NCBI GenBank assembly: GCA_024761205.1
Contig: JAMASS010000010.1
Coordinates: forward strand, 62,001-126,000
DNA length: 64,000 nucleotides
Direction of reading: 5' to 3'
DNA from: Limisphaerales bacterium
GTDB lineage: Bacteria; Verrucomicrobiota; Verrucomicrobiia; Limisphaerales; AAA164-E04
Shown here: piece by piece, positions 20,316 to 58,009 of the stretch
Layout: each line of letters begins with the position of its first letter
Numbering within the stretch: the first letter of the stretch is position 1
The notes under the pieces: model-generated
Told to the model about the DNA's origin: nothing
The model's database searches: none
The model's input: the letters and a program-made list of their open reading frames with translations, nothing else
Made by a program: the position numbers and the translations under genes

Positions 20316-20446
20316 GGTCTCATAGAGAGTGGCGGAGGGACTGGCCCGAAGATGCCACGGCAACCGGTTAGGGTACCGTGCTCTGATGTCCAGGTGCCAA
20401 ATCCAGCTTAAACCAGTAGTATCTGGCGGTTTGGGAAGATGAGAAC
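20316..20446 (+). promoter_or_regulatory. SAM-I (S-box) riboswitch
   Basis: The conserved S-box blocks occur in order: a P1 arm TCTCAT, then GAGTGGCGGAGGGA, CTGGCCCGA, GGCAACCGG, GGTGCCAAATCCAGC and the closing AGATGAGA that pairs with the P1 arm. These form the four-way junction that binds S-adenosylmethionine. The aptamer ends about 90 bases before the ATG of the threonine-synthase-like gene at 20533. No clear T-rich terminator follows, so control could be by a weak hairpin near 20444-20480 or at translation. Placing this aptamer ahead of a ThrC-like gene implies that the operon serves methionine or SAM supply. Confidence 0.92.
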
Positions 20447-49643: not shown

Positions 49644-50822
49644 TTATTCTCTGTCAGGGTAGCTCTTCGTCTCCTTCACGACAAGTGTTGTGTATTCCCT
49701 GCATTGTGGAGCCAGTTGCTGCCGGGGCACCTGGATTAACTCGCCAGGTCCAAAGATATAGTCGTATCCCGGCGCTGGCACCATATCATGTCTCGGAGGG
49801 AAAATCCCCCAGGGTCCCCGACGCTTATGATTGCAATCTCGCTGAGTGATCGTTTCCACCCAGCGATCCACGCCGCCCGAGACCCAGGGCCTCTTAACGA
49901 TTACTTCGTTGTCGTCCACGAGATCGAGCGTTATTGAGTCTGGCTGATGGCAGTCCAGTTGGACGTATCTCTCATAGTGTTCGATTGTTCCCCTCACCGT
50001 CCCGACCGAGCGTATCCCATGGGCCGCTTTCGCTTTACTGTACTTATATAGTACGGTGTAGGTGGCCGGCTGCCGGAGCATGGGATGGACAACTGCGCTG
50101 GATTGCTTATAGTCGGATTCAAGGATGAAATCACCCACCTCCCATTCATCGGTTCGGTGGTACAGAAGCGTGCCGAGCTCCAATTCGTCATCATCGTACC
50201 ACTCCCGCACGTAGGCGATGGCTTCCTTCGCATCGAAAGGGTCGGAACTGCTGCCATACCAGTAGAATTGGTAAGGATAAAACGGCTCCCCCTCCCAGGT
50301 GATCTCGTATTGCTTAATCCAGCCTGAGAAGTTCGCGGCCTTCAACTCTGATAGGTAGTCGCTGATGCCTGATGAGCTGCCTCGTGAGGAGTGGCTGTAT
50401 TGACGCTTGACCGGGTCGTCCACTTCATGCCCTTGGGAGACGCTTAAGGATTCGCTACTCGGGGCGTAATCATCAAATACCCCTGGGTAATTCATCCGGT
50501 TTCGTTGGTAGCTTGCGCTCGTCCAGAAGATGCCAAGGGGATAGGCTGAAGTCTTGTGCTGACGCGGGTCTGGGATGTTGTTGCGCCTGAGAAAGGCATC
50601 CACCGTTTCATTGAAGATACGGCTGAAGATGTTGCCAATAGTCTGTTCCTTGAATTGCAGGGCAAGTGCCCCTGCCACTGCCTGCAGCCATGACTGAGCC
50701 CGAGAAGGCCCGGCCGTGAAGAACAGTCCGGCGAGTAATGCGGCCGCAAGAAGGCCGCAGGTGATGGTTTTCAGCCCGGCGGTGAACCGAATTCCGTTTT
50801 GTTTGAGAATGTTCTTTTTCAT
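49644..50822 (-). CDS. Cassette copy 1, first gene: secreted protein of unknown family
   Basis: A 392-residue predicted secreted protein. It starts KKNILKQNGIRFT, a 22-residue N-terminal region before a hydrophobic signal (GLLAAALLAGLFFTAGPSRAQS) with an A-QS type cleavage site. The same pattern (RRNIVELNKTRFA ... SAQAQS) begins the first gene of cassette 2, so the two N-terminal regions are homologous. The mature part is rich in Tyr, Trp and Asp (PFYPYQFYWYGSSSDPFD, DEWEVGDFILESDY), without a domain I can name. ATG at 50822 was preferred to 50888 because it starts the conserved motif and keeps the leader non-coding. A conserved structured leader precedes it (50912-51049). Confidence 0.75.
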   Translation of the reverse strand: MKKNILKQNGIRFTAGLKTITCGLLAAALLAGLFFTAGPSRAQSWLQAVAGALALQFKEQTIGNIFSRIFNETVDAFLRRNNIPDPRQHKTSAYPLGIFWTSASYQRNRMNYPGVFDDYAPSSESLSVSQGHEVDDPVKRQYSHSSRGSSSGISDYLSELKAANFSGWIKQYEITWEGEPFYPYQFYWYGSSSDPFDAKEAIAYVREWYDDDELELGTLLYHRTDEWEVGDFILESDYKQSSAVVHPMLRQPATYTVLYKYSKAKAAHGIRSVGTVRGTIEHYERYVQLDCHQPDSITLDLVDDNEVIVKRPWVSGGVDRWVETITQRDCNHKRRGPWGIFPPRHDMVPAPGYDYIFGPGELIQVPRQQLAPQCREYTTLVVKETKSYPDRE

Positions 50823-50911
50823 GCTTTCTGTGTTAACTGCACATTCGCATTTGATTGTTAAACGGCTCGGCGGGAAACAGGGCATCACGCAATGTCCATC
50901 GCCAGGCCATT

Positions 50912-51049
50912 GCTAACAAACAACAGTGAAAGACTGAAGAAGCCCACTTATTTGCCCTAACGCCGAAGGGATCAATCTTCGGCGTCGTTTACGGGCTATT
51001 CTTATTCAGTGAGTGACCCGACAAACGAGTTTCACTGTTATTTGTTAGC
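50912..51049 (-). promoter_or_regulatory. Structured leader element, copy 1
   Basis: A 138-base element between nhaC and the cassette genes. Its ends GCTAACAAACAACAGTGAAA (read on plus) and TTTCACTGTTATTTGTTAGC pair over 20 bases with one mismatch. Inside is a hairpin with stem CGCCGAAG/CTTCGGCG, further supported by GCCC/GGGC. It lies 90 bases before the first gene of the cassette. Conserved unpaired blocks (TCGGGTCACTC, GAATAAG and CTTCAGTCTTTCACTG in gene orientation) recur in the element at 57033. No T-run follows, so it is not a terminator. Confidence 0.75.
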
Positions 51050-57032: not shown

Positions 57033-57174
57033 TGCAATTTATTCCATAGAGCCCCGACCATCGGGTTACTCGCGAATACAAAAGTTTCGTCACAGCGTCG
57101 GGAGAGTCCTTCTCCCGGCAGTGGCGGAACGAATAAGCGGGAAACTCTTCAGTGCTTTACTGGAATAAATTGCA
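57033..57174 (+). promoter_or_regulatory. Structured leader element, copy 2
   Basis: A 142-base element upstream of cassette 2. Ends TGCAATTTATTCCA and TGGAATAAATTGCA pair perfectly (14 bp). Inside, GTTTCGTCAC pairs with GTGGCGGAAC (with G-U pairs), and CGGGAGA with TCTCCCG. Unpaired or weakly paired blocks ATCGGGTTACTC, GAATA, GAATAAGCGGG and CTTCAGTGCTTTACTG align with the element at 50912. The outer and inner stems of the two copies have different bases but both pair, which is covariation. The homology continues to the first gene at 57251. Confidence 0.75.
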
Positions 57175-57250
57175 AACGGCCCGGTGTGGTTGCGTTTGCA
57201 GTCGCTTTGCCGGGAACGCAACAATCCGAAGAGACAAACAGTCAAAGATT

Positions 57251-58009
57251 ATGAGACGAAATATCGTTGAACTGAACAAAACCCGGTTTGCAGGCTTTTT
57301 GGCGAGCCTGTCCATCATCAAGAATCACCCCAAAACAGCGACAACGGGATTCGGTCTCGTTGCCCTCGTCACAGCCTTGATGTTCTGGCCGCCGTCAAGC
57401 GGGTCGGCGCAGGCGCAATCGTATCCCAAGCCGTCCATTGAATGGATCGGATCGCATTCGCAAGAAGACTATTTTTGCGAAGATAATCTCCTTGGGACGT
57501 GCGTGGATTGGGATATTCGGAGCTCATACGTCGAAACAGTGTACTCGCCAAGAGTTTCTCATCGCGGGAAGGTTAAAACGGTTACTTACTATCCCGACTA
57601 CTGGGTGAAAGCATATCGCTTCAGGACAATGACGCAGATTCACATAGAGCGACGGGACGGCACCTCTTATGTCAACGTCTATACGGATGAGAAGCGCCAT
57701 TACATACCGGCTGGCCTTTTCGCCTCTGCGCCCCGTTGCAAAGGAAAGCTTACCTGGACGGATAAGGGTTCGTGGGGTTGGTCGAAGGTCATTGAAAAGA
57801 ACAGTCCTAAACTTGTCGTGACCTCTAGCCCCAATCAACGGGGAAGCGTGAAATGGGACATAGTCTTCAACTATACCAAAGAGAACGGCAACCGCGGCAC
57901 TTGCAGCAAGAGTATCACCTTGTCCCCGAACCAATACTGGGTTGTCTATCCTTGCAAACCTTGGTTTAGCCGTGTCTGCTATGACAATGTGTTGATTCAT
58001 CGGCACTGA
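57251..58009 (+). CDS. Cassette copy 2, first gene: secreted protein of unknown family
   Basis: A 252-residue predicted secreted protein, the counterpart of the gene at 49644. It opens with RRNIVELNKTRFA, the motif M-[KR]-[KR]-N-I-x3-N-x2-R-F shared with cassette 1, then a signal-like hydrophobic segment (GFGLVALVTALMFWPPSSG) and SAQAQS. The mature part has several Cys (FCEDNLLGTCVDW; RCKGKL; NRGTCSKS; YPCKPWFSRVCYD) and tyrosine-rich strands, suggesting disulfides outside the cytoplasm. No known domain. It follows the structured leader by 76 bases and precedes the second gene by 19 bases. Confidence 0.75.
   Translation: MRRNIVELNKTRFAGFLASLSIIKNHPKTATTGFGLVALVTALMFWPPSSGSAQAQSYPKPSIEWIGSHSQEDYFCEDNLLGTCVDWDIRSSYVETVYSPRVSHRGKVKTVTYYPDYWVKAYRFRTMTQIHIERRDGTSYVNVYTDEKRHYIPAGLFASAPRCKGKLTWTDKGSWGWSKVIEKNSPKLVVTSSPNQRGSVKWDIVFNYTKENGNRGTCSKSITLSPNQYWVVYPCKPWFSRVCYDNVLIHRH

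Follow-up and report, generated by a model that had tools for sequence, protein, structure and literature searches.

A covarying 5′ leader RNA, distantly related to sRNA-Xcc1 and proposed to control translation of the gene behind it, in a Limisphaerales bacterium

Two structured elements on opposite strands each precede a two-gene cassette in the 64,000-nucleotide stretch of a Limisphaerales bacterium genome analysed here (contig JAMASS010000010.1, positions 62,001–126,000; the window), which raises the question of what such elements do. A preliminary description held that they share short motifs, that their stems differ in sequence while pairing in both, and that they could be a new cis-regulatory RNA or a DNA hairpin used in cassette movement. 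We found both elements at the places described, and a full covariance model (R2) gave their extents (Table 1). The shared motifs are real, in that the two elements align with each other, and the stems are indeed unlike in sequence and yet paired in each. Folding of both copies is far above that of shuffles (z scores in Table 1), and chance likeness, which would have refuted the description, is excluded because the genome contains 53 R2 matches. An Rfam scan of the window at gathering and permissive thresholds found no family for the leader element; the scan also placed a SAM riboswitch (RF00162, 70.9 bits) at 20317–20445 on the plus strand. Pfam returned no match for either gene of cassette 1 (gene 1 queried as 49644–50810) or for gene 1 of cassette 2, and gave no function for the window proteins.

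Table 1 Coordinates of the two leader elements, their parts and the genes behind them
Feature	Position in window	Strand	Basis
Leader RNA element, copy 1, whole	50900–51049	−	R2 124.6 bits at G000:C2:112900-113049; fold z −7.1
P1 5′ arm, copy 1	51030–51049	−	20 bp with 50912–50931
Pseudoknot 5′ strand GUCGGGU, copy 1	51016–51022	−	98% of cells paired in 28 copies, GC/AU covariation
P2 5′ strand CUCACU, copy 1	51008–51013	−	Covarying helix
P2 3′ strand AGUGGG, copy 1	50943–50948	−	Covarying helix
P1 3′ arm, copy 1 (proposed anti-RBS strand)	50912–50931	−	Pairs with 5′ arm; RBS complementarity not significant for copy 1 alone
Pseudoknot 3′ strand GCCUGGC, copy 1	50901–50907	−	Covariation analyses
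Leader RNA element, copy 2, whole	57034–57186	+	R2 69.7 bits at G000:C2:119034-119186; fold z −7.2
P1 5′ arm, copy 2	57034–57052	+	Pairs with 57154–57173
Pseudoknot 5′ strand AUCGGGU, copy 2	57060–57066	+	Pairing over copies
P1 3′ arm, copy 2 (proposed anti-RBS strand)	57154–57173	+	Pairs with 5′ arm; RBS complementarity not significant for copy 2 alone
Pseudoknot 3′ strand GCCCGGU, copy 2	57179–57185	+	Pairing over copies
Gene 1, cassette 1: N-terminal signal/anchor protein	49644–50822	−	ORF listing; start 77 nt after element
Gene 2, cassette 1: protein with N-terminal hydrophobic segment	48832–49623	−	ORF listing
Gene 1, cassette 2: N-terminal signal/anchor protein	57251–58009	+	Start 64 nt after element
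Gene 2, cassette 2: protein with N-terminal hydrophobic segment	58029–59135	+	ORF listing

The copies have one fold. An outer stem, P1, encloses an inner arm, P2, which has a conserved internal loop (GAAUACAAYAG / GAAUARG) and is followed by P3 and P4, and a 7-bp pseudoknot crosses P1. The sequence of P1 is unlike in nearly every copy and complementary inside each: over 33 copies, the duplex between arms of the same copy averages −23.6 kcal/mol, compared with −10.8 kcal/mol for arms from different copies. The pseudoknot joins [GA]UCGGG[UC] inside P1 to [GA]CCCG[GA][CU] directly 3′ of P1, and its outermost pair over 28 copies is GC in 19, AU in 8 and GU in 1. The preliminary description had missed this helix (GUCGGGU/GCCCGGC, the second strand lying just 3′ of the outer stem), as well as how many copies there are and that in relatives the 3′ arm is complementary to the ribosome-binding site (RBS). 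When a covariance model and a search for covarying pairs were applied, as that description had proposed, further copies kept the pairing: among 13 divergent copies 92% of cells pair and 22 pairs are changed on both sides, with a covariation score of 0.547 as against 0.237±0.017 for shuffled copies and about 0.1 for slid partners. Across 94 copies from many organisms, double changes occur at 34 of 38 pairs (score 0.656 versus 0.198); this alignment was fitted to the model and is hence biased towards it. The earlier inference that the structure is selected, with pairing kept while bases change, is borne out. Separately, the P1 arms of two leaders (L016, G000:C14:50194-50348; L014, G000:C17:10487-10640) come from different copies and pair poorly, as if leaders recombine.

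The count of 53 copies comes from R2, which was built from 13 divergent copies and applied at E<1e-3; an earlier core model (R1), built from near-identical copies, had listed 36 in the genome. A search of the phylum, also proposed at the outset, gave no significant match in 38 close relatives, among them three from its own genus, or in a 388-genome phylum sample, where stricter filters were used and weak copies could be missed. Scanning public genomes for a 24-base pattern yielded 96 stretches, where we estimate from information content that about 7 would be expected by chance, and R2 matched 79 of the 80 public genome loci tested, a few of them partially or weakly. The public loci come from many phyla, and 34 public genomes carry 1–11 copies each. 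Sphingomonadaceae genomes gave weaker matches (40–56 bits with model R3), and none of three viral contigs containing the pattern was confirmed by the models.

The place of the element relative to genes is constant. A start codon follows it at a median distance of 41 nt in 63 public loci and 60 nt in 34 copies from the window's genome, and the encoded protein has an N-terminal hydrophobic segment by a Kyte–Doolittle rule in 48 of the 63 and 23 of the 34, respectively. Start codons were chosen by rule; because the hydrophobicity rule also guided that choice, these fractions are upper-side estimates. The element is a 5′ leader, usually ahead of genes for exported proteins. The suggested association with the same gene pair held in part: a leader with an exported first gene is common, but the mature parts of the proteins are very diverse. 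At one locus (L010, 7500–9700), the first codons of a gene that we take to be DUF58-like in the absence of a domain search (MAREGKSVLGQQ) occur twice, flanking a cassette gene, and the DUF58-like gene seems shortened. Another locus (L013, G000:C34:618000-632000) contains a run of related genes (..AFYDPPSRRMKAA..) separated by remnants of the DUF58-like gene.

These observations bear on whether the element acts as DNA or as RNA. A hairpin or recombination site for cassette movement, attC-like or transposon-like, would suit copies that are dispersed and present across phyla, and the mismatched-arm leaders on contigs C14 and C17 look recombinant. Integron attC sites are likewise imperfect palindromes with strand-specific folding and are associated with cassettes. 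However, the sense strand of P1 contains 69 G·U pairs and 8 A·C mismatches, an excess that is expected of RNA; orientation and start-codon distance are consistent; and relatives show complementarity to the RBS. Unlike attC, the element stands ahead of a gene and has RNA-type covariation. The conserved attC boxes were not seen in the arms, as judged by eye and without a systematic integrase search: the copy 2 arms GCAATTT/AAATTGC lack the AAC/GTT of R″ (RYYYAAC) and R′ (GTTRRRY). We found no positive evidence for a DNA hairpin moving cassettes and give this reading almost no credence. The cis-regulatory RNA that the preliminary description offered as its other option is supported by the covariation, the constant 5′-leader place, the G·U bias and the RBS complementarity in relatives.

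We measured that complementarity with gapped local alignments, controlled by permutation and by comparison windows, which replaced a noisy first test that used an ungapped score over 110 nt. Public loci show complementarity between the P1 3′ arm and the RBS of the gene that it precedes (z=11.4 at −24..0). This signal falls to nothing outside about −36..+24, and no significant 3′-arm signal was seen in windows starting from −72 to −48 or from +12 onward. The P1 5′ arm in these loci resembles the RBS region (z=6.4). In the window's genome the 3′-arm signal over 34 usable copies is weak (z=2.6, p=0.006 at −24..0); some individual copies, among them L033 and L024, show it clearly, and likeness of the 5′ arm to the RBS did not reach significance in this genome. 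Neither window copy taken singly gave a significant match (shuffles were at least as good in fractions of 0.11 and 0.46). RBS pairing in the window's own genome is the weakest link in our argument. The p-values do not come from a pre-set test, because several related tests followed a by-eye sighting in some loci; the main safeguard is provided by the window and cross-locus controls. P1 could merely protect the mRNA 5′ end or slow decay, the RBS match in relatives being a separate matter. The weak signal in the window's genome would fit this, but the strong, position-specific signal in public loci and phages would not, and we consider it quite improbable.

The element resembles sRNA-Xcc1 (RF02221) in its closing or pseudoknot stem (7–9 bp), its P2, its AAUACAAYA...GGGAAUA internal loop and its place ahead of a gene. 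Comparison of the alignments revealed the same core order (stem strand, P2, AAUACAA loop, GAAUA loop, closing strand), and the Rfam model begins at the element's pseudoknot 5′ strand and ends just past its 3′ strand. The window copies differ in carrying a long copy-specific P1 that adjoins the core, whereas sRNA-Xcc1 copies of phages and plasmids have an upstream matching strand 63–109 nt before the core. The genes differ as well, with exported proteins behind the element and antirepressors or symE behind sRNA-Xcc1; symE lies downstream in Xanthomonas integrons (PMC12444791). RF02221 does not match the window copies even at E<=5, and its gathering threshold of 53 bits is not met; Sphingomonadaceae copies reach 26–43 bits, below that threshold. 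Because there is no match to the window copies, homology rests on intermediates. Judged by sequence, the family is distant kin of sRNA-Xcc1 through these intermediates and is not a member by the Rfam threshold. The element is a previously unrecognised RNA leader family, although the word new needs a qualifier because of this distant relationship.

Ten phage and plasmid loci with full RF02221 matches (65–86 bits) showed complementarity to the RBS (z=5.6, p<5e-5) and an upstream RBS copy (z=6.6, p<5e-5), and a control within the coding sequence showed no complementarity. The gene behind is of antirepressor type (Ant, KilA-N, BRO, Rha) in seven of the ten and hypothetical in three. Complementarity of the 3′ arm, or of the strand equivalent to it, to the RBS on the same mRNA is found in public loci and in phage and plasmid relatives alike. 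At L212–L217, 60–110 nt upstream of the RF02221 core, an RBS-like copy lies beside a GC hairpin and then a T run, a possible attenuator in the versions from phages. As annotated, sRNA-Xcc1 is a free trans-acting sRNA for which the neighbouring gene would be irrelevant, and in Xanthomonas it was seen as a discrete RNA some 100 nt long; the mapped RNA is 88 nt, about the length of the Rfam model (PMC2996969). Against extending this annotation to the family, in relatives the variable strand is a better match to the neighbouring gene's RBS than to the RBSs of other loci, and we regard a free trans-acting sRNA as very improbable.

A riboswitch would also be a cis-acting leader: its conserved core would bind a small molecule or second messenger, stabilise P1 and the pseudoknot and free the RBS. 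The P1 3′ strand could serve as the switching strand, the unpaired loop letters are conserved, and the regulated genes are diverse. The proposed exchange between P1 and Shine–Dalgarno (SD) strands is like that of translational riboswitches with an anti-SD strand in P1. Unlike these, the element has no known ligand or aptamer family and no Rfam riboswitch match. We have no ligand evidence, and antirepressor genes of phages, which the relatives control, are known to be subject to antisense regulation without a ligand. We consider a riboswitch unlikely.

The relatives share with C4 of phages P1 and P7 (RF01695) the succession of an upstream copy of the RBS region (a1b1 in C4), a structured RNA with an antisense strand, and then the RBS. 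The C4-like features that we detected are the antisense strand against the own RBS, at the z scores given above for public and phage or plasmid loci, and the upstream RBS copy. The fold of C4 is different from that of the element, and RF01695 gave no match in any Rfam scan made. RNase P processes C4, whose b′ loop covers the RBS (PMC5320573). The enzyme also cleaves pseudoknot substrates within loop 1 when these are followed by RCCA (PMC12710915). Because the 7-bp stem with RCC resembles a tRNA acceptor end, we infer that RNase P could remove the 5′ arm. RCC follows the pseudoknot stem in 52 of 76 public loci; because it does so in only 10 of 46 copies from the window's genome, such processing may not apply there.

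We think it likely, without expression data, that the element is a cis-acting structured 5′ leader RNA for translational control of the downstream gene, and that it is divergent kin of sRNA-Xcc1 and works like C4. Because a strand complementary to the RBS of the leader's own gene is present in most relatives, each leader probably works as a stand-alone switch for silencing the gene it precedes. We infer that the P1 3′ arm would exchange partners: pairing with the 5′ arm, an RBS look-alike, would leave the RBS free, and pairing with the RBS would block translation. Removal of the 5′ arm by RNase P may fix the gene in its silent state or set free an antisense RNA. The family has multiplied in the window's genome to 53 leaders of lineage-specific, mostly exported proteins. 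If this is true, sRNA-Xcc1, filed as a trans-acting sRNA, joins C4-type self-antisense control, and a phage-style switch has been redeployed for exported proteins, at as many as 53 loci, in symbionts of many phyla. It would offer a testable handle on how symbionts control exported proteins, and a natural modular design in which the core stays constant and exchangeable arms can be written to fit a given RBS.

The public records are mostly metagenome-assembled genomes (MAGs) whose bin codes we take to be those of sponge studies; this reading of habitat rests on record titles, with no tested statistic. One sponge MAG study covered seven sponge species and 25 phyla (PMC8163846). Our literature search found no sponge-linked structured RNA leader. 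As a tentative idea, which we doubt somewhat more than we believe, marine sponge symbionts of unrelated phyla may share a single self-silencing leader that spread horizontally, was tailored at each gene to the RBS of an exported protein, perhaps answers a common host signal, and expanded to 53 loci in the window's lineage.

Individual copies in the window's genome show further features. One 5′-truncated leader (L043, G000:C11:37255-37342) lies directly after what appears to be a tRNA gene's 3′ end (..TTCGAGTCCCTCATCGCCCACCA), which may mark the junction of an island. Additionally, two leaders on contigs C55 and C75 (L026 and L027) are near-identical together with the start of the gene behind them, which may reflect a recent duplication or an assembly split.
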